Positions 14,464 to 61,371 of a stretch of 64,000 bases of DNA are shown piece by piece; the stretch's first letter is position 1, and each line of letters opens with the position of its first letter. Both the position numbers and the translations under genes were made by a program. The stretch spans positions 1-64,000 of the forward strand of contig NZ_CP112975.1 of the NCBI RefSeq assembly GCF_026410925.1. Reading direction: 5' to 3'. The notes under the pieces are model-generated. The model saw nothing but the letters and a program-made list of their open reading frames with translations. It was not told where the DNA came from and made no database searches. The stretch is from Halovenus salina (GTDB lineage Archaea; Halobacteriota; Halobacteria; Halobacteriales; Haloarculaceae).

Positions 14464-15817
14464 TCAGCCGAACGACTCCAGCGTCTCGTTCCAGAACGTC
14501 CGGACTTGCTGGATTGCACGCGCCATGCCACCCTTCACCGGGTGGCATTGGCGAAACCACTCGACAAGCACGTAGGCAATTAGCGCACAGAACAGCTCGA
14601 GCAGGACGCCGTTCAGCGATATCGAGTGGAAGTTCTCGATGTTCAGATACTGCTTCAGCTCCCGAAAGAGAATCTCGATACATGTCCTGAGCGTGTAAAT
14701 GCTGATCACGTCGATGGGACCGTATTCTGACGACGCCAGCGTCGTCAGGTACTCGATCTCTTCTCCGTCTGGTGTTTCCAGAACAATCCGGCAAAACTCT
14801 TCACCAGTCTCGGCCAACTCAATGCGTTCATCACGAACCCGCCGCGTCGATTTGCCATCAGAGTTGTTTGGCTGAGCGGCGTTGGTCCCGGAGACAGCTA
14901 CTTCGAACTCTTCGAGGACTTCGATGACATCAAACCGAGCGTCGGAGTGCAGCAGCGTAACGAAGTCGTCGTCACTGTGCTTGATCTCACAAAATCGGAG
15001 ATAGCGCGTGTATGCACGGTCAAAGACCCAGATGACCGAGTCGAGGTCTGCGAAGACCTCGACATCGTCTTTGAGGAGATTGAACTGCGGGCTTTCGTGG
15101 CTGTCGCCTTCTGTAACAGTGGCATCGAGTGGGTTTTTGTGTTCTCCGTCCACGCGCCCAGCACAGTGAAGTTCGAGTCCCCGGTCATCTGTATCAATCT
15201 CGTAGACATCTTCGTCGTCTCCGACGAATTCGTCTGATAGTGATTGTTGTGGTTATTTTCGTGACCACGTCACGAATCTCGGTGTTTCACGGCGTGAGAC
15301 CCGCGCCTCGTTTCCCGACGGCGGTAACGACTCGCAACAATCACTATGAGACGACAACAGAGCGTGTGAGTTCGAGGTTCGTTGCGTCGGCAGCGACGAC
15401 ACCTCGCGTCAGCCATTCCAGTCGTTTTCGTTGGACTGCTCGCTGATGATACAGTTGTGGCGTGTGCAGTAGCTCGAACAGGAGGCGAACGACCGCGCGG
15501 TAGTCGCAGTCGTTCGTGAGTTCGGAGAACCGTGACTTGGGCATGTGTTCGAGGGACTCGTCAACAACGGTCTTGTCTTCGAGTTCGGCAAGAGAACTGG
15601 ACGGATCGAGGCCTTCACGAACAGCGACCTTGAGGTGGTTCGTGAAGTCGTGTTTGTCCGAGTGGATGCCGATTCTGAACTCGTCGGCAATAGACTCGCT
15701 GTCGACTGCGTCGAGCAGCGAGTAGAGTGCATCAGCGACAATTTCGTCAGTATTGATGTTGCTGGCGTCTGTACCTCTTGTTGACGGCCTGTGTTCTGAG
15801 TTGGAAGCTACAGACAT
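14464..15817 (-). pseudogene. IS4-family transposase interrupted by a MITE
   Basis: The N-terminal frame (15344-15817) runs to VAADATNLELTRSVVVS and stops; the C-terminal frame resumes at SDEFVGDDEDVYEIDTDD and ends at TGA/TAG near 14464. Removing 112 bases (15238-15349: the insertion plus one TGA copy) restores one frame of 414 codons, VVVSDEFVGDD without a gap. Conserved parts include MPKSRFSELTND, VFDRAYTRYLRFCEI and the C-terminal DDE glutamate in LRTCIEILFRELKQYL, the Y-(2)-R-(3)-E-(6)-K pattern typical of IS4 transposases. Confidence 0.85.
15238..15346. mobile_element. 109-bp MITE inserted in the IS4 transposase, TGA target duplication
   Basis: Starts TAGTGATTGTTG and ends CAACAATCACTA, a 12-bp perfect inverted repeat that extends imperfectly inward. 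It is flanked by TGA at 15235-15237 and 15347-15349. Precise removal of 112 bp restores the host reading frame. It has no coding capacity, so it must have been moved by a transposase supplied in trans. Confidence 0.85.
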
Positions 15818-15870
15818 TACAGGCCGTCACGACCGGCTCATGCCAGTTTTAAATACTCAGAACGCGACAG

Positions 15871-16249
15871 TCAGTACTTAATTTTTCATACATGATCATT
15901 CTTCTGGTTTACTAATATGTTGTGTCCACGTGTCAATAGCCACACCCCAGTCCGGTCAATTTGTACACGTTCTTACGTCGGAGATCGTTGATTCGGCTCA
16001 GGCAGTGGTCCAGAATAGTTCTCACGGCTTAATTCGCTGGGTCTTGGATTATGCTCTCCGATTAAATATATCGGAGGTTCGGGTCGATATTCGGACTATA
16101 TCGCACTAAATATATCATCACTAAAATAGGAAATACGGCAGTACAGGGTGTGAGAAGACTTCTGTACCACTGCCACAGTTTGGTTAAAGAATGACCGGAC
16201 AGAAAATATGACACTCAGTCTTATATACTCACACAGTATTTGTAACACT
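15871..16249. other. AT-rich intergenic region with a small hairpin and probable promoter
   Basis: No gene is seen. CTCCGA (16056-16061) and TCGGAG (16071-16076) form an inverted repeat around ATTAAATATA, which itself looks like a TATA-type box. AAATATATC occurs again near 16110. These probably lie in the control region of the downstream lipoprotein gene. Confidence 0.35.
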
Positions 16250-17628
16250 ATGAAAAATTGTCAGAAGACATCTCGCAGACGACTGCTCAAAGTTGGTGTG
16301 ACTGCGGTTTGTGGCCTCGCAGGTTGTACCAGTCTGACGGACAGAGAGAATGGAGGGTCCAGGTCACAAGACGCGACACGGAACACGGAATCGACATCGA
16401 CCTCGTCAGGGCAAATTCGTGACGGGCCACCTGAGATGTCGGGTTGGCCACTTGATCAGTACGGACCTCGAAACACCTGTTACAACCCGACGACATCAGG
16501 GCCATCAGGTCCAGTCAAGGAAGCGTGGTCAACAACACTTGCCACACGTCAGTCCATAGGGCAACCAGGGGCGGAGAAACTGTTGTGGTGCAAGACGGGA
16601 CACTCTACACGACGAACGGTGGTGGTATCGTCCAGGCCATTGATACAGGGGACGGGTCTGAGGTGTGGTCACGCACAATAGCACTCCAATCAGGCAATAA
16701 ACGGCCAACAATCAGGTCACTTGCTGTCATGGATGGGCGTGTGTTTGTCCCAACCGGAGCCCGAGGGAGTCTACTGACGCTTGATGCGAACACCGGTGAG
16801 ACCCTTTGGGAGACAGATTCAACCGATGAGGGTGTTGAAAATCCACAGCGATACGACACACCGGTGAAGGGATCACCAACAGTCGTTGATGGGACTGTCT
16901 ACGTCGGAGATAATCGCTACAATATCTATGCACTGGACGCAGCAACCGGTGAGCGTATCTGGGTTTATACAGGCATTGAGCCAAATCGCCGTAAAATCAA
17001 CTACCAACTCGCTGTGCATGAGGGTCTCGTATATACCGCTCGCCAGGCACTCGATGCAGAGACAGGGGAGATTGTTTGGGATACTGAACTCCCGCCAGAA
17101 AACAGTCTTGGAGGAGACCCAACTATACACGGAGATGATCTCTGGGCACTGCGTACGTATGCGCTCCGGCAGCTTGATCTGAAAACAGGCGAACAACGCA
17201 GTTATCACGGCTATGAAACCGATGTGCGGACATCTGGAAGCCCAGTCGCTGGAGAGGGGCATATTTATTTTGCATCAAAAACACGCAAAGGGACAGTATA
17301 CGCTCTTCCGAACGACCCAGAAAAAATTAGCGCCTATCTTGAACAGCCGGCCGGGAGAACGTGGCAGAAGGCGCTTGCAGCCTGGCAGACATCGTCGTTC
17401 CAGGGAGGCGTCGCTCAATTTCAGGCGTCGATTGCGGATGGCGTCCTCTATATCCGTTCATCCTTGAAAGACAGAGGCTATCTATACGGCGTAGATGCTG
17501 CAACCGGTCAGCGGTTGTTCGAGTTTGAGACGTCAGTGAGTTCGTTCAGCAGTGCGCCGATTATCGTTGACGGCACTATCTATATTAGTACCCACGATGG
17601 CAAATTATTTGCTCTCTCTGAAAAGTGA
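16250..17628 (+). pseudogene. PQQ-type beta-propeller lipoprotein with one frameshift
   Basis: From ATG 16250 the protein starts MKNCQKTSRRRLLKVGVTAV and reaches a lipobox at GLAGC, with a twin-arginine motif (SRRRLLK), so it is a Tat-exported lipoprotein. Reading must shift once near 16565 (after RQSIGQP) to enter the long second frame, which contains at least six propeller blades: VVVQDGTLYTTNGGG, IVQAIDTGDGSEVW, LLTLDANTGETLW, IYALDAATGERIWVY, ALDAETGEIVWDT and LYGVDAATGQRLF. The repeated 'DAxTGExxW' form is that of PQQ-like repeat proteins, which often act as outer-surface scaffolds without any cofactor. Confidence 0.8.
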
Positions 17629-22606: not shown

Positions 22607-22684
22607 GATAAGAACCTCGAAGCCGGGGAACGACAGTGAATGTGCCGAAGGAATCTCCTTCGTCGGTTCTCTTTGCCGACGTTC

Positions 22685-23368
22685 TCACTCTGATCCGGAC
22701 AACAGGGCCTCGGTGACATCAGCGTACACCCGAGTCGTGAGGTTGACCAGGTGGAGACCGGCAACGGTGAGGGCAATCCCGATCAGCGAGGCAAGGAGCG
22801 CCTCAGGGAGAGTCTCGATGGCAAGTTGCCCCTGGCTGATGGTGGTAACGCCGAGGTCGATCGACTCTGTAGTGTCGAAGTACTGGACACCCTCTCTCCA
22901 GTAGACCGCCGGGGCGACGACGAGGCTAAGCGACAACGCAAATCCGACCACGAGCGCGACGAACAATCCAATGCCTGTACCAAACGAGGCAAACGCTAAT
23001 ACCAACAAAAGGTAATTTATCGGGTCGGTTGCAACCTGTTTGAGATAGGGGACAACAGGCGTGTTGTTCGGGTCGACCGGCGACCACTCGACATCTCGGT
23101 CAAGCAAGGTTCGCAAGAGCGTAGCCTCAACGACGCCGACGTACCCGGCCACTGCGAGGACGCCCGCGAGAATCGGGAGACCCACGAGCAGCGGAGCGAG
23201 CGACACGCCAAGGGAGAGTCCTGTCACGAACACCGTGAGATACGCGATTCCAAGCGGGAACCGAGCCACGAGGTACAACAGGTTCTTGTAGGTCTGTGCG
23301 TCGGTTGCCACCCCGAGGGTTCGAGTTGGCACCCGTCTGTCAGTCTGTCTTGCTTGGTGGTTTTCCAT
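22685..23368 (-). CDS. Membrane protein with putative sensor domain
   Basis: 227 residues from MENHQARQ. Four hydrophobic segments are present: YLTVFVTGLSLGVSLAPLLV, ILAGVLAVAGYVGVVEATLL, INYLLLVLAFASFGTGIGLF with FVALVVGFALSLSLVVAPAV, and LPEALLASLIGIALTVAGLH. The N-terminal YLVARFPLGIAYLTV matches the opening of the 'putative sensor' family (PF13796), in which the membrane domain normally precedes a kinase or regulator part; here it stands alone. The start at 23374 would add two residues. It is co-oriented with and 80 bp upstream of the large gene at 20244. Confidence 0.65.
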   Translation of the reverse strand: MENHQARQTDRRVPTRTLGVATDAQTYKNLLYLVARFPLGIAYLTVFVTGLSLGVSLAPLLVGLPILAGVLAVAGYVGVVEATLLRTLLDRDVEWSPVDPNNTPVVPYLKQVATDPINYLLLVLAFASFGTGIGLFVALVVGFALSLSLVVAPAVYWREGVQYFDTTESIDLGVTTISQGQLAIETLPEALLASLIGIALTVAGLHLVNLTTRVYADVTEALLSGSE

Positions 23369-41556: not shown

Positions 41557-42837
41557 TCAAAACGAATCTAGTGTTGTCGTTGTCCCATCAGTAGCAAATA
41601 ATTCCGCTAGTCGATCGTCTTCTTCGAGAACTTCTTGGGCCAAATCCGGACGAATCGAAAACTCGTATTCATAATACGAACCACCCTTCGGCCCCTTATT
41701 CTGCTCATCAACGTCCAAGAATCCTTTTAATGTTAACTGCGACAACCGATCGTGAATTGTTCGATCCGTCCGAACATCCGCATCGATACGCTTTGCAGCC
41801 ATAACATATCGCTCATATATCCGGTTACGTTTGGACGGCGTCTCACCCTCTTGCTCCAACAATAGTAGCGAGTAGAGAGTCAATTTACTCTGCGTCGGCA
41901 ACCGAGTTAACTCCTCACGTACTTTATCGCGTTCAACAATCTCATCTGCCTGCCGTACATGTGCTTCGGAAATGACATCAGATTCTTCATCTCGAGCCAG
42001 ATCTCCAGCCTTATAGAGTCGCTTCAACGCCTGTCGGGCACTCCCCGAGTCTTGTGCAGCGAATGCCGCACATAACGGAATTACATCACCTTCCAAAATG
42101 TTAGACTGTAACTCGTAGGTCCCATCGTCAAGCTGCGTAGCCTCAGTATCGTGGAATGCCTCACCTGCTCGCTGTTTCAAGATGTTCCCAAGTTCGTTGG
42201 CATCATAGGGTGGGAAATGAATCTCCTCATCAGCGAGACTGTCTTTCACACGGGCCGAAAGGTTGTCGCGGAACGTGAAGTCATTTGAGATGCCAATAAC
42301 TCCAACCAGTGTTTCCTCAACGTTACCGTTATCATTAGCTCGCGGAAGCTTATACAGAATATTGTCATCGTTCCCAATAGCATCAATCTCATCTAGTACT
42401 ACAAGGCAATGCGTTGCGTCAAGGGCCTCCAGTTCATCGAACAGCATATTATAAATCATGCCGCTCGGATACCCAGTCGGTTTAATCTGCTCGTCCCGTG
42501 GACGGAACTGATTAATGAGGTTTGCAGCCACCTGGTAGCTGCTGTTCAGCGACTTGCAATTCAATTCAACGACGTGTACATCAACGCCATCGATTTGTTG
42601 CTGATCCTCAATTAATCGATCAACAACCATCCTGGATGATAGTGTCTTTCCGACCCCTGTTTGTCCATAGAGAAATAAGTTCTTTGGCGGGGCCCCATTA
42701 ATAACAGGTTTGAGTGCACTCTGGTACTGCTCGAGTTCTGTATCTCGCTCGATGAGGCGGTCGGGTTGGTACCCGTCCCGTAGGACAGATTCATCCCGAA
42801 AAATCGTCGAGTCGGGGGAGAACGGTTCAAGACCCAT
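41557..42837 (-). CDS. orc1/cdc6: Orc1/Cdc6 family replication initiator
   Basis: 426 residues from ATG 42837 (MGLEPFSPDSTIFRDESVLR). AAA+ motifs: FLYGQTGVGKT (Walker A, about 55-65), LVVLDEIDAI (Walker B) and sensor 1 region VIGISND. The C-terminal 100 residues are a winged helix (RLPTQSKLTLYSLLLLEQEG, then KGGSYYEYEFSI). It binds ORB-type repeats and loads the helicase. It lies directly beside the repeat-containing, gene-free region 42875-43625, the usual haloarchaeal cdc6-ori arrangement. The ATG at 42867 is less likely. Confidence 0.9.
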   Translation of the reverse strand: MGLEPFSPDSTIFRDESVLRDGYQPDRLIERDTELEQYQSALKPVINGAPPKNLFLYGQTGVGKTLSSRMVVDRLIEDQQQIDGVDVHVVELNCKSLNSSYQVAANLINQFRPRDEQIKPTGYPSGMIYNMLFDELEALDATHCLVVLDEIDAIGNDDNILYKLPRANDNGNVEETLVGVIGISNDFTFRDNLSARVKDSLADEEIHFPPYDANELGNILKQRAGEAFHDTEATQLDDGTYELQSNILEGDVIPLCAAFAAQDSGSARQALKRLYKAGDLARDEESDVISEAHVRQADEIVERDKVREELTRLPTQSKLTLYSLLLLEQEGETPSKRNRIYERYVMAAKRIDADVRTDRTIHDRLSQLTLKGFLDVDEQNKGPKGGSYYEYEFSIRPDLAQEVLEEDDRLAELFATDGTTTTLDSF

Positions 42838-42874
42838 CGTAGATAACAGAAGCACGGTATGTGACAAAAAACCA

Positions 42875-43625
42875 CCGTTTCATGAGAGTCATCTGTTTCA
42901 TGAGAGGTAGCCACTGCTTCACGGGACGATTAGACCCTTCATCCACCCCCTCCCCCCGATTTTCACGAGAGTTTCCCTTATGAACTAGGGGAGAATGAAA
43001 ATTAGACTATATCACAGAGAAAGTTTTAATATAGAGAGTTGATAACAATACCCGTATTACACTAGTAGTTGTTCTGTAGTTGTAGAGAATCTAGGAAAAA
43101 GCGATAGATATTGTTTCTTGCCCTCTTCCTCTATGGTGACACTCGTGAAAACCGGGGGGAGGGGACTACACTTTCGTAGTTGGATAGGTGGATTAAGAAT
43201 CACCGCCCAGTGATGCCTCTCGTCGTTATCTGATTTCTCTCCCACGAGAATTGACTGGAACTGTTCAAGCGGATCTAGTCCTCGTCGCTTCCAGGTCGCC
43301 AACATCGTTGTTCTCGTCTCGTGAATTAGGACCTCTCTGACGAATGGAGCATCTGAAACATCTTCTGAAGGGGCGTTATCGAGTGATTACAACTCCGCAG
43401 ATAACCGCTCTGGTTCCTCGTACCGTTCGGCGACGTACTCGGCTTCTCGCAACCGATGAGCCCAACGCCGCGGTATTCAGAATATGGATAATGTTACACC
43501 CCGTATTTCATGAGTGTGAAATTGACGTGTTGTCTCCTCACTCTCGTGAAAACTGGGGTGAGGGGAGATGAAAAATCACCAGCTTGTTACCACATACCAC
43601 ACTCTCGTGAAAACCGGGGGGAGGT
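42875..43625. other. ori: Replication origin with ORB-like repeats
   Basis: Four long ORB-like copies with the halophile G-string: inverted at about 42944-42971 (CCCCCCGATTTTCACGAGAG), direct at 43140-43165 (CACTCGTGAAAACCGGGGGG), 43540-43566 (ACTCTCGTGAAAACTGGGGT) and 43600-43624 (ACTCTCGTGAAAACCGGGGG). Shorter TTTCATGAGAG copies stand at about 42879-42905. Between the inverted and first direct copies lies an AT-rich stretch (42990-43075) suitable as unwinding element. No gene is inside. Position next to orc1/cdc6 supports a functional origin. Confidence 0.8.
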
Positions 43626-45956: not shown

Positions 45957-46803
45957 GGATCAGCAGGTGGCGTTCGAGGGGGTCCTGCCGTCGATCACGG
46001 CGAGACAGAACCCGTTTGGAGAGAGCAGTTCGTGTTCGGTCGAACCAGTGGTTCTGGAGGCAGCTGAAGAGGATGAGGTTCTGCAGCAGCGGCCAGTGTC
46101 GATTCTCTGCTCGGGCTGTGGTGACGTGATCACGCGCTACCGAGATGGCATCCCATCCAGATTGGCACACTTCGAAGAGGAGTGTCAGACCTGCGAGACA
46201 GGGCTGCAGCGATGGAGTGCGGTGGCGATAGTGACTTCATTGGAGACGGCACCGAGTGTCGAGCAGTTAGAGTCGGTGACGACGGGCTATTGGGATCGGC
46301 ATCTGTGGACGGGAATCATGACTGGTGAATCGTATCCTCGAACGGAAGAGTACACAGAAGAGTACACGAAGCAGGCAAAGCAGTTTGGGTGGGAGTGGAA
46401 GGTTAGATGTCCGCTGTGTCGGCGATCACTCCCGGAGTTTGGTATTGAGATGTTCGACTACCACCACTGGCATCGTGATCCAGACCAGGGGATTTGTCTG
46501 TGCCGTGCGTGTCACAAAGGAATCACAGGTGAGGGACGAGACGGCACACAAGACTGGCGAGCACAGCAGTTGGGGCTGAAGAACAAGCACGACCTGCAAC
46601 TGACGCGGTTGGCAATTCGTGAGCAGGTGGTCAGCGATCACGAGACACTGGAAGGGTTGGTAGAGACGGTGGTGAGTCGATACAATTCGACGATGAATCG
46701 GATGGAGTTGTTCGCACTGCTCTCACAGACGTTGACGACGTCGGTCGTCTTGGATACGGTGGAGGATGAGTGGCTTCTCGCGGCGTTGTCAGTAAGTCAG
46801 TAA
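45949..46803 (+). CDS. HNH endonuclease-like protein
   Basis: 284 residues from ATG 45949 (MHRDQQVAFEGVLPSITARQ). Two zinc knuckles early (ILCSGCGDVI and ECQTCETG) are followed by a clear HNH core: VRCPLCRRSLPEFGIEMFDY, HHWHRDPDQG and ICLCRACHKGITG, with the HH...N/D and CxxC residues. The C-terminal 90 residues (KNKHDLQLTRLAIREQVVSD) are helical and are duplicated at 53756-53977. It is translationally coupled to the preceding gene. Likely a site-specific nuclease of an island, either defensive or mobile. Confidence 0.7.
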   Translation: MHRDQQVAFEGVLPSITARQNPFGESSSCSVEPVVLEAAEEDEVLQQRPVSILCSGCGDVITRYRDGIPSRLAHFEEECQTCETGLQRWSAVAIVTSLETAPSVEQLESVTTGYWDRHLWTGIMTGESYPRTEEYTEEYTKQAKQFGWEWKVRCPLCRRSLPEFGIEMFDYHHWHRDPDQGICLCRACHKGITGEGRDGTQDWRAQQLGLKNKHDLQLTRLAIREQVVSDHETLEGLVETVVSRYNSTMNRMELFALLSQTLTTSVVLDTVEDEWLLAALSVSQ

Positions 46804-53755: not shown

Positions 53756-54016
53756 CTGAAGAACAAGCACGACCTGCTACTGACGCGGTTGGCAATTCGT
53801 GAGCAGGTGGTCAGCGATCACGAGACACTGGAAGGGTTGGTAGAGACAGTGGTGAGTCGATACAATTCGACGATGAATCGGATAGAGTTGTTCGCTCTGC
53901 TCTCCCAGACGTTGACGACGTCGGTCGTCTTGGATACAGTGGAGGATGAGTGGCTTCTCGCGGCGTTGTCGGTGTAAGTCGGTAATTCACGACGGCGTCC
54001 CTTTGGAATCCCACTT
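53756..54016. repeat. Right copy of the 261-bp direct repeat (fragment of the HNH gene)
   Basis: Encodes KNKHDLLLTRLAIREQVVSD and following, the C-terminal part of the HNH gene at 45949, up to a stop at 53975-53977, then 39 bp of its downstream sequence. No start belongs to this fragment; the apparent ATG at 53726 is accidental. It meets the primase fragment at about 54016. Confidence 0.9.
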
Positions 54017-54592
54017 GCCTCTATCGAGGAGGAGCACCTGCGAGAGCGCAATGTATTCTCCTCTGAGCCTGCTCCAGTGACAGTACCCCGTGCAGATGCA
54101 GTCGATGCCGAGACAGATGTCCCACTGACCATCGCAGACGAGAAACCGGACAGCGACGAATCTGAGGCCACTGAGCGACCTGTCTCAGAGTCGGTCACCA
54201 ACGAGTACGCATACGAGTTCCAAGACATCCGCAAAGCCATCCACAACGGTTTCGAGATTCGAGACTGGCTCACCGATACCGTTGGCTTCGACAGTGCGGA
54301 TGTCTTTTACAGTGGCCAGGGAGTCCACATCTATGCGAAGTCGGATGACCCTTACCTCACGCTGACTCATCAGTCCCGGAAATACATTGGTCGATACATC
54401 AACGAGCGACTCGGCTTTCCGATTGACGATGAAGTCACCTGGGACCGGTCACGAGTTATCCGGCTTCCATACAGTTTGCACACAGAGGTCAACAGAATTG
54501 TCACGCCTATCACGAGTCGTGACTTTGACTTCATCAAAGAGGCAGCACTTCCGCAATCAGTGCGCACCAACGACGGTGATATCCAATGGTAA
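54017..54592 (+). pseudogene. 5'-truncated archaeo-eukaryotic primase, small-subunit (PriS)-like
   Basis: The frame is open from the repeat junction; the first in-frame start is GTG 54077 (171 residues). The readable sequence starts LASIEEEHLRERNVFSSEPA. Primase motif II (VFYSGQGVHIYAKSD, SxH type) and motif III region (TWDRSRVIRLPYSLHTEVNR) are present, as in PriS-like AEP proteins. Motif I (the DxD pair) should lie immediately before LASIEEE and is missing; the 261-bp repeat begins exactly there. So it is very likely cut by recombination. It overlaps the next gene by 7 bp (translational coupling), as PriS and PriL often do. Confidence 0.6.
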
Positions 54593-56139
54593 CGAAAGAC
54601 CCTACGAAAAGCGTGGTCCGTGCATGGCAGGTTGCAATCAATCCGCGCAACCATTCGAAACTGAATCGGCGGCTCCTGCTTGAGCGGGGCGCACAGTACT
54701 ATAGCACGAACGGGGAGGCAAACGAGAAAGCGATGATCAACGACGTGGCGGAGTTCACTGCCTGTGCCTTCCAAGAGCCAGAACTGGATGAAATGCTTGC
54801 GGGTGAGTCCGACCCTGAAGATGCAACGGACATTGACCTCACAAATCCAGACCCCGGTCGGCTCATGCTGCTCATGACATTCGGTTCAGTGCTGGTCCAG
54901 CGACACCCGAAGATACAGAAGGACAGCCGCGACTGCATCATCCACGAGCGGCTGCACGAATACTATCTCAATAATGTGTACCGGGCGGCCCGTACCTCAG
55001 AGCATGGTGACGAGATATACACAGCTCTGGGGACAGTCGTCTACGAGCGAGATAAGGAAGATGAGTACGGCCCACCAGCTGGTGAGCCAGTCGAAGGAAT
55101 TGACACACTCGAACCACTGGGAGATGCAAAATTCTTCAAGGTGCCATTGGCTCACGCGAACCGGCATTGCGAAGCCCGGAAAGACAACAAGCCAGGTGGC
55201 GACATCCAATCCATCATCAGAGGGAAGTACGTCTACGTTCCCCTCTCGGATCACGTCAAAAAGTACCGGGACGCATTCTTCGGGCGGAGTGGTGTGGCGC
55301 GGTGTCTAGAAGAAATCGTCTACGACAATATTCCGGAAGACAAACTGGACACCTACCGTGATGCGCTCACGGGAATCAACAACAAAATCACGGAGTGGAT
55401 TGAGTACGGCGAAGCAGACAAAGTATTCAAAGCCCACCGGTACCCGCCGAAGTTGAAAGCGATCCTGCTAGCGATAGACCACGTAGACTCAGAAGTGGCT
55501 GCATTTGGTGAGCCGCTGACCAGCAAACAGATTGCACGAGCGACGAGTATCTTCCACGGGGCGACTGACATTGACTGGGTGAAGAAGACACTCGAAGGGT
55601 TGACCTCTCCCCAAGGAGTTGGGATGGTACTCGTTGATCTGGCGAACGATAGCGACGTAGACAATGTGGAGGTGGACACTCACGTTGACCCGAACGAATA
55701 TCTGATTGAGTACCACAAGTCGAACGCGAAGGTTGTCGAGGTGACTGAGCTTGAAGACCTACTGGAACTCCCGTGTATGCAAAACATTCACGAGATGGCT
55801 ATGTCGGACTCAGCACCACGGCGGTGGTACCTGTTCAGTATGGTCCGTATCATCCTGGAATTGGAGACAGACTTCAGCGTTGAAGACATCAAAGAGTGGT
55901 TCTCGCAGTACCCCTGGTATCGAGAGAAAATAACAGACTATCAAGTCCGGTACGAGAAGAAGCAAGATATTGAAGGTGAGTCACCCCTGCCGGTTGGCTG
56001 TAACAACGACAATCGCAACTTCGAAGATGTGTGTATCGGACGAGAAAATTGTGACTACTCGATCTACCAAAGTCTGAATTTCAGCGACGATGTGTACAAC
56101 CGACTGAGCGAGGACGACGACGGGTACGGTCGGCGGTAG
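54586..56139 (+). CDS. Divergent primase large-subunit (PriL)-like protein with iron-sulfur domain
   Basis: 517 residues from ATG 54586. The N-terminal 300 residues are helical with weak similarity to PriL (HSKLNRRLLLERGAQYYSTN; HERLHEYYLNNVYRAARTSE; FFKVPLAHANRHCEARKDNK). The C-terminal domain is recognisable: LLELPCMQNIHEMAMSDSAP, RRWYLFSMVRIILELETDFS, then DYQVRYEKKQ and LPVGCNNDNRNFEDVCIGRE, NCDY. The cysteines at 397, 472, 483 and 489 fit the four-cysteine [4Fe-4S] site of PriL. Together with the PriS-like gene it would form a plasmid primase, placed directly upstream of the iteron array. Confidence 0.7.
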   Translation: MVTKDPTKSVVRAWQVAINPRNHSKLNRRLLLERGAQYYSTNGEANEKAMINDVAEFTACAFQEPELDEMLAGESDPEDATDIDLTNPDPGRLMLLMTFGSVLVQRHPKIQKDSRDCIIHERLHEYYLNNVYRAARTSEHGDEIYTALGTVVYERDKEDEYGPPAGEPVEGIDTLEPLGDAKFFKVPLAHANRHCEARKDNKPGGDIQSIIRGKYVYVPLSDHVKKYRDAFFGRSGVARCLEEIVYDNIPEDKLDTYRDALTGINNKITEWIEYGEADKVFKAHRYPPKLKAILLAIDHVDSEVAAFGEPLTSKQIARATSIFHGATDIDWVKKTLEGLTSPQGVGMVLVDLANDSDVDNVEVDTHVDPNEYLIEYHKSNAKVVEVTELEDLLELPCMQNIHEMAMSDSAPRRWYLFSMVRIILELETDFSVEDIKEWFSQYPWYREKITDYQVRYEKKQDIEGESPLPVGCNNDNRNFEDVCIGRENCDYSIYQSLNFSDDVYNRLSEDDDGYGRR

Positions 56140-56314: not shown

Positions 56315-57056
56315 GTTCAATAATAGCGATGATTGCGTATACGTTAGAATCACACCACACAAAGCAGTTCAATAATAGCGACGGTTGCGTATACGAATTT
56401 TTGATTACCACAGGACATTTTTCTTTCTGTTTGAAATACATTACCCATGTTAATCAATATAATCGCAGTACTCAGTACAGTTCAATAATAACGACGATTG
56501 CGTATACTCTATAATCGCAGTACTCAGTACAGTTCAATAATAGCGATGATTACGTATACGGTTTTTTGATTACTACAGGGCATTTTTCTTTCTGTTTGAA
56601 ATACATTACCCATGTTAATCAATATAATCACGGTACACAACGTAGTTCAATAATAACGACGGTTGCGTATACGATAGAACCACCATACACAATATGGTTC
56701 AATAATAACGACGATTGCGTATACGATTTTTTGATTACTGTAGAGCATTTTTTATTCTGTCTGAAGTACATTACTCCAGTTAATCAATATAATCGCAGTA
56801 CATGGCATGGTTCAATAATAGCGACGATTGCGTATACGGAAGAATCGCAGTACATGGCATGGTTCAATAATAGCGACGATTGCGTATACGATTCAAAAAA
56901 TGGTTCATAGTAATATAATCTTCCTGTCTGTTTGGTGCTGAAACTATATCTCACATAATCGCCTGACACAAAGCGGTTCAATAATAGCGACGATTGCGTA
57001 TACGGCAGAATCGCAGCACATAGAGCGGTTCAATAATAGCGATGATTGCGTATACG
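56315..57056. repeat. Array of ten 29-bp iterons in five evenly spaced pairs
   Basis: The unit starts GTTCAATAATAGCGA and ends TTGCGTATACG (29 bp; variable A/G at two or three positions). Copies begin at 56315, 56367, 56480, 56532, 56645, 56697, 56810, 56862, 56976 and 57028. Spacing is 52 bp within each pair and 165, 165, 165 and 166 bp from pair to pair. The spacer between pairs is also repeated (ATTTTTTGATTAC, CATTTTTCTTTCTGT, TTAATCAATATAATCGC). Short frames inside have no gene features. Candidate iteron-type origin or centromere. Confidence 0.9.
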
Positions 57057-58005
57057 ATTTTCACATAATCAGACCGTCAGAAACGGCGATTTGAGAATCT
57101 GTGGGCCTGTTTTAGAACGCGTTATAGGCTGGCCCAAGCAATCTAAGGTCGTGAGAGGGGTATATGGGGCAGTTATTTGGCCGATTTTCGTACCATCACA
57201 CCCCCCACCTGAGTTGGCATTTAGCCATATTTCAGAATCACTTTCTCAAACAATCTATTTACAAAGTAACAGGTTCGTTCAAACGCCAGCTGGGGCTGGG
57301 GGGTGTGGGACTGTTCAGGCGGCACAGTCCGGGGGCCTCTGAGGGGGTCTCCGCGGCTGCTCTATCGGTGTGGTGCGCGGACACTGCGGGGCCAGATGAT
57401 GCATATGCGCCACGTATGCATCACTGACCGCCTACACACTCGTGTTTTCTTCGCACATGAGACGCGTTGATCCGCTGTTGTTCTCATGCACCAACGGGTC
57501 CCTGACTAGCGACTGTCCGACTCTGTATCCATCGTCGCGTTCCTGTCCGAGTGTGTTGTGTCCGCTTACGAGAGGGACGGTCCTCGACCCAACGTCCGTT
57601 GGGTCTGTGGGTCCCCCCTCTCGAACTGGCCGCCACGGGCGGCCAGGTCGATAGAGCGTGGCCGGGGAGTGAGGTGTGGGGTAGGATGGGAGTGGAAAGG
57701 GAGTGGGAGTCGTGTGTGACGCTAATCAATGAGCATGTAGCGCGGGGATCAGCCCGGCGCTTAGGATGGTTCACACCCGTTCTTCTGAGGGTGTGGCAGT
57801 ATCGTACGTCTGTGACGTTCGTTCTTTGACTGCTCTGTTTTTGTTCACCTCACCACTTTTCTCACAGTATTTTGAGAAGGTGATGGGGATAGTAGTGGAG
57901 CGTCTTTGGAGGCTTCTTGCTCTATTTTCTTCGGTAGCAGAAGGGTTGTGTTGTCCTTGGTTGACTCGTCTTTTACGGTAGCAGAAGAAGTCTATTGTTG
58001 TCTTC
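57057..58005. other. Intergenic region, no gene seen
   Basis: About 950 bp; the frames are short, Ser/Cys/Arg-rich and not haloarchaeal in composition. G-runs (CTGGGGCTGGGGGGTGTGGG near 57290-57310) stand out. It divides the iteron array from the acidic gene at 58006. Confidence 0.5.
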
Positions 58006-58662
58006 TTACTCGTCCACGGACTCTACATCGTCACTGTCGCTGTTGTTGTTCCTGTTGCCAACTTTCTTTGGCTCCTCGTCCAGGTCGACGATGACACACT
58101 CACGTTCCTCATCCCAGTCGGGATAATAGCGCATGCTCAGCTCATCATCGAACTGGTCCTTGATGCTGAACTGTCGCACTAGCTCTCTGATTGCCATCTC
58201 AGAGACGCTGTTCTTATCCTCCAGATCAATCTCTTTGATCTTTACTCCAGGGCGCTCCGCTCTCAGCTTGTTGGTCTCTTCCTCCGTGAGCGTCTTCAGA
58301 TAGAGCTCGTTCTCGCTCTCGTTGTAGAGGATAGTATAGGCGTAGTAGCCCCTGAGGTGACGCTGGGAGAGGTGGGAGTTAGGGGATATCCTCTCGCCCT
58401 TTGGACTGAATCTAACGTAGCTTGAGCCTTTGAGTCCAAGGGACACGTCATCATCGAAGCCACTGAGAACGTCCTCGTCTTCGTTGTCTTCACGATCTTC
58501 TGCTGTCTCTTCGCTCCCTGACTCGTTGTCCACTGGTGTCTCTTCGCTCCCTGACTCGTTGTCCACTGGCGTCTCTTCGCTCCGTGTTTCATCGGATTCG
58601 CTGAGTTCTTCCATCTCTTGATCGTCCAATTCTTCTTGTTCTACGTCTTCTGATTCACTCAT
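58006..58662 (-). CDS. Very acidic protein with N-terminal repeats, function unknown
   Basis: 218 residues from ATG 58662 (MSESEDVEQEELDDQEMEEL). Residues 27-52 repeat SEETPVDNESG twice with a third variant (SEETAEDREDN). The C-terminal 150 residues are a compact domain: GLKGSSYVRFSPKGERISPN, RGYYAYTILYNESENELYLK and DWDEERECVIVDLDEEPKK, perhaps a beta-barrel-like fold. No family recognised. It is the only credible gene between 56.2 and 60.9 kb. It may encode a partition or DNA-binding factor for the nearby array, but this is only a suggestion from location. Confidence 0.65.
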   Translation of the reverse strand: MSESEDVEQEELDDQEMEELSESDETRSEETPVDNESGSEETPVDNESGSEETAEDREDNEDEDVLSGFDDDVSLGLKGSSYVRFSPKGERISPNSHLSQRHLRGYYAYTILYNESENELYLKTLTEEETNKLRAERPGVKIKEIDLEDKNSVSEMAIRELVRQFSIKDQFDDELSMRYYPDWDEERECVIVDLDEEPKKVGNRNNNSDSDDVESVDE

Positions 58663-60600
58663 GCGATCTCTCCACTGCTACATTCATCGGCAACTCTCAA
58701 AATATTTCTAGTGTCTCTCACGACAATCTCCCCTGATGCATAGCATCATCGCCCTCGTCGCTATCGGGACACTCAACGATTGGTCTCTTGGGCGAGGTGA
58801 CTATTTCTCCGGAGCATTCGGAAAACGACACGAATCGTGGACAGACACCAGAACCCATTATCGTGCGTTACTCGCGCGTACATCTTCCTCACGCTTCAGT
58901 CGACTCCGAATGGCTATTTCGACTCTGTTGGTCGTGCTGTGGTATTTCTCACACTCATCGGCGCTCTCACGACACGCCCCTTCCATCACACGCGGAGAGC
59001 CTCTTGTTGTGTTGCAGTGACGACCTTGAAAGCCCTCAACGGGTTCGCGGTCGCTGAGTGGCATATCTGCTCGGTCAACCGCCCGCACTCGCAGATAGCG
59101 GCCACTCAGGCGACTCTCCGATGGCGCGAACCCGTCTCGCCCTTTCAGTCCACCAGGTGTTCATTGCCCAGCTTCGCTGTTACTGCCGTACTCCAACTGT
59201 CACGCACACGCTTCTCTATCATCACTCTCGACTACTACAACAGTCGACCTCCGTCGTGTCGGTCTCTCCATCACAGCATCGTCATCGTCGTCGTTATCTC
59301 CATCGGCGTCCTCCCTCTGGGTCGGTCGTCCGCCTCTCTTGACGCACAGCATCAGCATCACACCACGTCCTTACGATTTTCAGCTCGCATCTCCGTGACT
59401 CGTCGTCGGCGTCCTCCCTCGAGGTCGGTCGTCCGTCACTCTTCCTCACAGAACCGCTTGTCGTCCTCCTCCTCGGGGTCGTCGGCCTCGATATCGCACA
59501 GCACCGCTGATCGTCTCTCTCCTCGCGGTCGTTCGACTCGCTACTGCACAACACCGCTGGTCGGCCTCCTCCACGCGGTCGTTGGCCTCTCACCGCTCAG
59601 CATCAGAATCACGCCGCATTTCTCCGATTTCCAGATCGCATCCTACCACTCGCCGTTGGCGAGCTTTCGCAAACGAACACGATCCGCGCATCCCTCGCGC
59701 GCTGTGCGCGCCAGATGAACTGGCGCTGGTCCGCCTTCGGCGCAACTTCATCATCACATACCCAACTGCACCCACACATGAGGAGCAGCAAGCTGCGCCG
59801 GGGTCGCCTCCGGGCGGTCCACCCCGAGCACTGCACGAGAGCCACCGGTTCCGACCGCGCTTATCAATCGAGGCTCTCCGGTGCTGTCCTCCGAGCCTCT
59901 GTGGGGTGAACCGTCTGTGGTGCTGTCCTCGACGGATGCTTATGCGGGCGGCCTGCGGTGCTGTGCTCGTTGCCCTGGTGCTCGCTTGCCTGCGGGCGTG
60001 TCCTCGACGGCGCTCGGGGCTCTGGCGCTCCAAGCCCGGTCGGTTTCCACATTGCGCTCGCCGAGCGCTCATTTTCTGTAGCGGTCCACCCGATGACACG
60101 GACCTCCTTCCATTCGGTCGCTCCTGCACTCCTCGCTGCGGTGCTGTCCTCGCTCCGGGGTTACCACGACATTCCTTGCTCTGTTGAACCCCGGTTCCCT
60201 CTGCGAATTTGATCGCTGATTTCAGGGGATTTGGACGCCTTCTGGCGATATGGGTAGATTACGGAACCTCACAGAGAGCATTCACGAACTCGCTACGGAA
60301 CACGTTGAGGACGTTGCGACGGCCCTCCCGCGTGCCGGGCTTTCACCCGTCTGTCGCCTTTCCTACGACACTCGGATGCTTGTTGCTAACCGCAAATAGG
60401 ATTGCCCCCGCCCCCCTATTGTTGAGTCTGTCACGGTTGTCACGTGAGTCATGCTATTCACGTTACTCATGGGTAGCTCAAATCGGTATTTCTGAGACAT
60501 CGACTGATGTGAAGAAATCACTCAGCGAATAGCTCTTTCACAATGGGTGGGGCCTTGGAAAAACGGCTTCTCTGTGAGTGCGAGCGGATACCCACCTAGA
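58663..60600. other. Gene-poor, pyrimidine-rich (C/T) region with degenerate tandem repeats
   Basis: The plus strand is rich in C and T (for example CTCCTCCTCGGGGTCGTC). Degenerate units such as CGCACAGCACCGCTGATCG, GTCGGCCTC and CGTCCTCCCTC repeat between 59280 and 59640; GTGCTGTCCTCG recurs at about 59880, 59920 and 60140. All long frames are Arg- or Ser-rich and basic, unlike haloarchaeal proteins. It does not look like the 3' part of any gene. Confidence 0.6.
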
Positions 60601-60603
60601 CGC

Positions 60604-60932
60604 TTATCGGCGAAGAAGATTCAGGATGTCGTGGACGATCTCTACTGAAGCATATTGCTGTAGAGATCGAAGCAGAGTTTCAACGGAGGCTACACGCGGG
60701 CGCACGCGATGACGGGAACAGGAAGACGTTCCGTGTCGTCGGCGTCCGCAACCGGTCGCACGCCCCGCTTCTGGTTTACAAATTGGGTGGGTTTCTCGGA
60801 TACTCTCCGCCACTGCTGTTAGAGCGACTGATCGAAGAGGCACAGAAGATTCACCAGCAACGAACAATCTTCCGTGATGACGAGAGACGGAGTCTCTCGA
60901 ACCACTTGACCTCGAGGCGATTCACTGGGTAG
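60604..60932 (+). pseudogene. Possible decayed transposase fragment
   Basis: In one plus-strand frame the sequence KHIAVEIEAEFQRRLHAGAR, then DGNRKTFRVVGVRN and LERLIEEAQKIHQQRTIF is protein-like, with LSAKKIQDVVDDLY in another frame upstream. 'RKTFRVVGVRN' resembles the middle of IS4-type haloarchaeal transposases. There is no start and at least one frameshift. The identification is tentative. Confidence 0.3.
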
Positions 60933-61371
60933 AGACGTCGTGATGACGTTCGATGACCTCAGCAAACCCGACATTCTCTTGCACTTGTTGAAGACGGACG
61001 GTCACTCGGTCACCGATGTCTGTCTCCGGGACGATCAGGACATAGCCGCGTTCGACTTTCGCAATCCCATCGCCTTGGTCACCGAGGCTTTCAATCTCAA
61101 CCTCACGTGTCTCTCCCTCCGACACAGGTAGGTCGTGTGTTCGTTCACCGTGCTGGCGAGCAGACGTGGGGTCAGCTGACTCGCCCGGTGACGGTTCACT
61201 GGTTGCTGGGGGAGCATCGGCTATGGAAGACAAAAGCGCCACCCGGTATATTTCTCCACGCTGGATGTTCCCGCGTTCGACCTCGCGCTTCGGCACTTCA
61301 ATCGTATATGTGTCGTCCTCCTCAGTCATAGTGGCCGAATACAAACACAGTAAGTCGTTGGAGATATGCAT
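60922..61371 (-). CDS. TRAM-domain RNA-binding protein
   Basis: 149 residues from ATG 61371 (MHISNDLLCLYSATMTEEDD). The start MxIS..LLCL followed by YTIEVPKREVERGNIQRGEI, then YRVALLS is the usual N-terminus of haloarchaeal TRAM proteins. A Pro/Ser/Glu linker (about 52-85) precedes the TRAM beta-barrel: REVEIESLGDQGDGIAKVER, GYVLIVPETDIGDRVTVRLQ. Such proteins act as RNA chaperones. The long linker is unusual. A start at 61392 adds seven residues and is less likely. Confidence 0.85.
   Translation of the reverse strand: MHISNDLLCLYSATMTEEDDTYTIEVPKREVERGNIQRGEIYRVALLSSIADAPPATSEPSPGESADPTSARQHGERTHDLPVSEGETREVEIESLGDQGDGIAKVERGYVLIVPETDIGDRVTVRLQQVQENVGFAEVIERHHDVSTQ

Follow-up and report, generated by a model that had tools for sequence, protein, structure and literature searches.

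A Regularly Spaced Repeat Array behind a PriL-like Gene of Halovenus salina, Apparently a Member of a Family of Haloarchaeal Plasmid Control Sites

What could ten copies of a 29-bp sequence, held at almost constant distances behind a PriL-like gene, do on a haloarchaeal replicon? The copies are located in a stretch of 64,000 nucleotides from Halovenus salina (the window), which belongs to contig C4 (117,008 bp) in a haloarchaeal genome with four contigs. A preceding sequence-only reading proposed that they could be a nucleoprotein scaffold, i.e. an iteron origin for the PriS/PriL-like module or a plasmid centromere. All ten units were confirmed at the starts reported there (56315, 56367, 56480, 56532, 56645, 56697, 56810, 56862, 56976, and 57028); a degenerate 28-mer with at most 3 mismatches finds 10 matches in the window but not a single one across 100 dinucleotide shuffles, corresponding to a chance expectation of 0. 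The units share 86-100% pairwise identity. The reported distances are correct too, with 52 bp inside all five of the five pairs and 165, 165, 165, and 166 bp from pair to pair. The array is arranged as follows.

56315..57056, plus strand: ten-unit array in five pairs, defined by unit matches and spacing
56315..56395, plus strand: pair 1, units 56315-56343 and 56367-56395
56480..56560, plus strand: pair 2, units 56480-56508 and 56532-56560
56645..56725, plus strand: pair 3, units 56645-56673 and 56697-56725
56810..56890, plus strand: pair 4, units 56810-56838 and 56862-56890
56976..57056, plus strand: pair 5, units 56976-57004 and 57028-57056
56891..56975, no strand: spacer of 85 bp whose sequence shows no relation to the three long spacers of 84 bp

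The palindrome CGTATACG described for the unit is intact in nine of the ten copies and altered in the one at 56480, which ends CGTATACT; the unit at 56532 carries TTACGTATACG instead of TTGCGTATACG. A box of the AATCGC/AATCAC/AACCAC type is present ~20 bp upstream of most units, i.e. the unit extends upstream. In pairs 1 to 4, sequence as well as spacing recurs every 165 bp as a true tandem repeat and, since the long spacers are 79-87% identical, the regularity of these pairs alone could be due to duplication. The fourth long spacer shows 52-53% identity to the others (shuffled mean 52%), yet has a length of 85 vs 84 bp, and constitutes the main evidence within the window for length, not sequence, being kept. 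Because of this unrelated spacer, the array spacing looks selected. Helical-turn arithmetic was discarded as an argument, because, beyond 150 bp, every spacing agrees with one or another value in the range of 10.2-10.6 bp per turn.

A search for the 29-bp unit elsewhere, as proposed in the sequence-only reading, returned a second array in the same genome and nothing beyond it: the unit is absent from all others of the 146 genomes of the family, and PLSDB holds no relatives of the array at the DNA level. The second array occupies positions 60334-61102 on the minus strand of contig C3 (135,744 bp), inside a block ~95% identical to C4 53756-63138. Between both arrays, the units differ at 4.1% and the spacers at 11.5% of sites (p=4e-4). 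Flanking non-coding DNA differs by only 2.1%, less than the array spacers (p=2e-8). The lack of indels within the array was discarded as an argument, because the gap columns counted to its right for comparison proved to be an artefact of the alignment end.

The two contigs show further rearrangements and repeats. A segment of ~7 kb on C4 (46803-53756, with genes of 353, 417, and 1297 aa) is missing at C3 63384-63640; a ~219-bp duplication marks its two boundaries (46576-46794 and 53756-53974, 97% identity at the protein level), and homologs of the three genes are found at C3 38.5-44 kb. A ~1.07-kb sequence, probably an insertion sequence, occurs at C4 5358-6422, 32708-33780, and 92074-93142 and is ~90% identical to C3 52962-54032. 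Several ORFs of equal length and in the same order at C4 ~1.2-11.7 kb and 87.9-98.5 kb suggest a large duplication. Tandem repeats of 33 bp (window 58500-58583, within a very acidic 218-aa ORF) and of 50 bp (window 59447-59589) were also observed.

Two genes precede the array.

54077..54592, plus strand: PriS-like ORF of 171 aa, C-terminal half only (weak matches to PF01896 and to NCBIfam PriS)
54586..56139, plus strand: intact PriL-like 'primase-associated protein' of 517 aa (NCBIfam NF038197, E=1e-88)

The PriL-like protein scores 298 bits against NF038197, well above the curated cut-off of 100, and its residues C397, C472, C483, and C489 are invariant in 26 homologs. The assignment is putative, as it relies on a family named only 'primase-associated protein' and on these four cysteines. 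A fold search with the predicted structure (mean pLDDT 79) gave no significant match; a Pol alpha-primase chain, ranked fourth with E=1.1, was not accepted as evidence. Alignment with intact homologs revealed that the PriS-like protein of the window is devoid of the catalytic DxD region, which is present as DID in the homologs of loci L060 and L064; PriS on C3 (62807-63319) exhibits the same truncation with loss of the DxD region. Upstream of both genes, an AddA-like helicase-nuclease and proteins without family match are encoded, and the next clear gene on the 3' side of the array (58006-58662) is oriented towards it. The array follows a PriL-like gene rather than a known iteron-binding Rep, and no RCR-type family was detected among the window genes in Pfam, PHROGs, and NCBIfam scans. 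PriL homologs occur in 25 of 146 family genomes and, across the class, in 105 of 392, and a PLSDB search with the L064 relative retrieved 88 plasmids, among them pNRC100. A viral origin of the element was dismissed, since the PriL query had no relative in IMG/VR and no phage record was found.

Repeats of other sequence with a similar period of ~160 bp are present downstream of PriL near distant NF038197 homologs. The closest relatives by PriL (L059, L060, and L126, 34-35% identical) and a remnant (L077) harbor four palindromes CTATAGTnnnACTATAG spaced by 154, 165-166, and 165-166 bp, in detail 154/166/165 (L059), 154/166/166 (L060), and 154/165/165 bp (L126), and these palindromes form islands of conservation amid poorly conserved spacers. 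In many other loci, CGTCRNGCANNTT units occupy positions of roughly +67, +226, and +266 relative to the PriL stop codon. Here, the first two units are 157-161 bp apart in 34 of 35 rows, the second and third 40 bp in 29 of 30, and the second unit lies 130 bp from a hairpin loop in 33 of 35. By the sequence of the first spacer, 37 such elements can be sorted into five groups (one with n=27, the others small) with constant spacer length, so that part of the sample is related by descent; identity between groups is near the shuffled level (0.50), and the independent evidence provided by these elements is the agreement between groups. The ~160-bp period is common and not universal, because L124 has one unit per 82 bp (164 for two), L076 shows a spacing of 101-102 bp together with 19-bp pairs, and the two repeats of group C lie about 196 bp from each other. 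Many PriL loci were also inspected in which no repeats were recognized downstream. A resemblance between the window unit and that of group A (CAATAATAGCGA / CAATTTTAGCGA) was set aside as suggestive at most, with 18 of 500 shuffles reaching it. The window array is the most repeat-rich version seen and also among the most divergent; therefore, what holds for the function of its relatives may not apply to it. A scaffold linked to a PriL-like gene, as initially suggested, is likely given these similar ~160-bp repeats downstream of the same gene family.

Most relatives carry a second component, a stem-loop downstream of the repeats with a nearly invariant loop (GTCC.AAG.AA) and a covarying stem, in which 86% of stem cells are paired (30-53% in sliding controls) and 44 cells show double changes vs 18 in shuffles. 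The corresponding covariance model (R1) matches in 100 of 392 haloarchaeal genomes. With weak matches excluded, the hairpin is found in 85 of the 100 PriL-bearing genomes vs 10 of the 292 lacking PriL (p=3e-58, a value that overstates independence since the genomes are related, yet the contrast is large). Repeats and hairpin also stay together apart from PriL, both in stand-alone copies without PriL nearby and where insertions separate PriL from the array. On pNRC100 (L139), PriL (15056-16579) and the hairpin (22667-22712) are ~6 kb apart with arsenic-resistance genes in between, probably due to an insertion. Whether the unit always follows a PriL-like gene, as the sequence-only reading had asked, can thus be answered with usually, as stand-alone copies exist. 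Six hairpin matches were counted on a single replicon of another genome (G064, contig C2, 418 kb), and several copies also in G446. Neither the window nor C3 matches the hairpin model. A different structure was read from the sequence downstream of the array.

57397..57423, no strand: stem-loop TGATGCATATG-CGCCA-CGTATGCATCA, with one stem mismatch in the C3 copy

This stem-loop might, speculatively, be a counterpart or replacement of the hairpin of the relatives, from whose conserved loop its own differs. A described RNA was rejected as the identity of the element, as neither the window stretch nor the L064 element has a match in Rfam.

In many relatives, the element adjoins an operon encoding TrbL/VirB6 (PF19590), a protein without family, a VirB4-like and a VirD4-like ATPase, PriS, and PriL; L060, with its 165-bp palindromes, possesses the VirB4-like, VirD4-like, PriS, and PriL genes. 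The VirD4-like assignment is provisional, being based on a weak DUF87/HerA match and on operon position. In PLSDB typing, plasmid pJ7-1 and a Natribaculum plasmid are classified as MPF_T but non-mobilizable, with no relaxase found on either by PLSDB/MOB-suite typing. This T4SS operon adjacency applies to the relatives; no T4SS genes were detected in the window genome, where searches for TrbL and VirB4 homologs, run without a positive control and hence weak, were negative. A separate replication region lies on C4, outside the element.

41557-42867, minus strand: orc1/cdc6
42947-42972, 43135-43162, 43536-43563, and 43597-43624, no strand: ORB-like repeats beside orc1

This region (41557..43624) is the probable replication origin of C4, and the minimum of the cumulative GC skew falls at 42966 within it. 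The array is 13 kb away and consequently not adjacent to an Orc1/ORB origin. Orc1 is encoded on nearly all PriL-bearing replicons checked, far from the element on pJ7-1 and the Natribaculum plasmid, and the latter shares with C4 a backbone of an XPB-like helicase, DUF790, and orc1.

Taken as a whole, these patterns would fit best, with a probability of about 0.5, an array that forms one half, the protein-binding one, of a cis-acting DNA-processing site in a haloarchaeal PriS-PriL plasmid module. We infer that such a site is bound by a protein, that its DNA is folded and then nicked or primed, and that it has a role in transfer. An element-specific protein would occupy the repeats held ~160 bp apart and fold the DNA into one complex; the neighboring invariant-loop hairpin, where present as in most relatives, would then be opened, nicked, or primed, and its processing would start single-stranded DNA synthesis or transfer. 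By analogy, variable repeats beside an invariant hairpin are the logic of bind-and-nick origins, and one such origin from haloarchaea, that of virus SNJ2, has experimental backing (PMC13107129). Counted against a DNA-processing site are the lack of the model hairpin in the window and on C3, PriS without its catalytic motif, the negative though weak searches for TrbL and VirB4, stand-alone elements upstream of small operons, a PriL-like identity that the fold search did not confirm, a period that differs between groups, and the many loci in which no repeats were recognized. In the window itself, the element would act in trans, follow altered rules, or be decaying, because PriS is truncated, the canonical hairpin is lacking, and T4SS genes were not detected.

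As the best reading of its type, the element would be either oriT-like, which is slightly preferred, or a rolling-circle-type initiation site. A transfer-linked role is slightly more likely than vegetative replication because the element sits where a T4SS-primase operon ends and Orc1 and ParA have loci of their own. The oriT of bacterial conjugative plasmids comprises a nic site and is served by a cognate relaxase. The element resembles it in the T4SS operon adjacent in relatives, in the combination of variable binding repeats and a conserved hairpin, and in stand-alone copies reminiscent of mobilizable plasmids, whereas the directly adjacent primase genes have no parallel there. Archaeal conjugative plasmids have no recognized relaxase, and their DNA processing is an open question (PMC9905601). 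It is conceivable, as a tentative proposal, that T4SS plasmids of haloarchaea use the elements as origins of transfer, i.e. as a primase-coupled oriT without recognized relaxase, in which a ~160-bp scaffold presents the hairpin and stand-alone copies mark mobilizable plasmids.

A vegetative origin of iteron or rolling-circle type, used by PriS/PriL plasmids besides the Orc1 origin, appears somewhat unlikely. Repeats and hairpin adjoin primase genes and the relatives are plasmids, and a precedent exists in the haloarchaeal betapleolipovirus SNJ2, where the region following the initiator gene (rep/ORF19) contains a non-conserved binding site and a conserved hairpin that together form an experimentally shown rolling-circle origin (PMC13107129). 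Like this origin, the element is haloarchaeal and bipartite, with a specific binding repeat upstream and a conserved hairpin downstream, after the last gene of an operon. SNJ2 differs in having a single short inverted repeat, the spacing of which is not conserved, instead of two to ten repeats at a fixed ~160 bp, an RCR endonuclease gene instead of PriS-PriL genes, and a hairpin where the window copy has none of the model type. Haloarchaeal Orc1/ORB origins, one of which is located on C4, likewise consist of repeats beside a replication gene, but the array is unrelated to ORB in sequence. In RSF1010 (IncQ), the oriV combines iterons with ssi hairpins that serve the RepB' primase. Both systems unite iterons and hairpins with a primase of the archaeo-eukaryotic type on a single replicon; unlike RSF1010, element replicons also carry Orc1, their repeats are spaced much more widely, and a RepC-like protein that binds the iterons is not known for the element. 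The cumulative GC skew of C4 peaks at 58000, beside the array, but gene direction changes at the same place and the peak was discarded as confounded, and the minimum lies at the Orc1 origin. Orc1 on nearly all PriL replicons checked, a window PriS lacking the catalytic motif, and stand-alone elements in genomes without PriL, which make PriL unlikely as the initiator everywhere, also argue against a vegetative origin. The iteron origin initially proposed for the PriS/PriL module is conceivable but not needed, as C4 has orc1/cdc6 and ORB-like repeats at 41.6-43.6 kb and most PriL replicons checked also have orc1.

The repeats could instead be operators of a regulator and the hairpin a leader or promoter part of the downstream operon, a control region that we consider unlikely. 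It would explain that, in many loci, element and hairpin point in one orientation towards small downstream genes ~140-270 bp off, and that two different downstream gene sets occur; stand-alone elements, which sit upstream of small operons, fit it as well. However, the downstream genes vary between the sets and the element is kept, rigid spacing across ~330 bp exceeds the needs of an operator, and the next clear window gene faces the array.

The plasmid centromere put forward in the sequence-only reading, bound by a ParB-like protein, is disfavored and must be rated improbable. Regular direct repeats on large plasmids do resemble known centromeres, but the array is not at the partition operon on C3, C4, pJ7-1, or the Natribaculum plasmid: ParA-like genes are located at C4 85786-86634 (29 kb from the array) and C3 101.8 kb and, far from the element, at 80650-81468 on pJ7-1 and 225-1076 on the Natribaculum plasmid. 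Near-identical arrays on two plasmids of one cell would, moreover, predict incompatibility. Least of all is a functionless tandem duplication of a 165-bp unit to be expected, since the identity of pairs 1-4 including their spacers is offset by the equally long but unrelated spacer that precedes pair 5, by spacing conserved at distant loci, and by units that change more slowly than spacers between C3 and C4.

The array belongs to what is apparently a widespread and so far undescribed family of plasmid control sites in haloarchaea; descriptions of the element are absent from the titles and abstracts listed in open-access searches, a provisional statement given partial coverage. The combination of fixed spacing and changing repeat sequence points to a definite nucleoprotein geometry. 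As a cis element tied to haloarchaeal T4SS-primase operons and found also on pNRC100 and pJ7-1, it offers a short, testable segment for transfer or replication.
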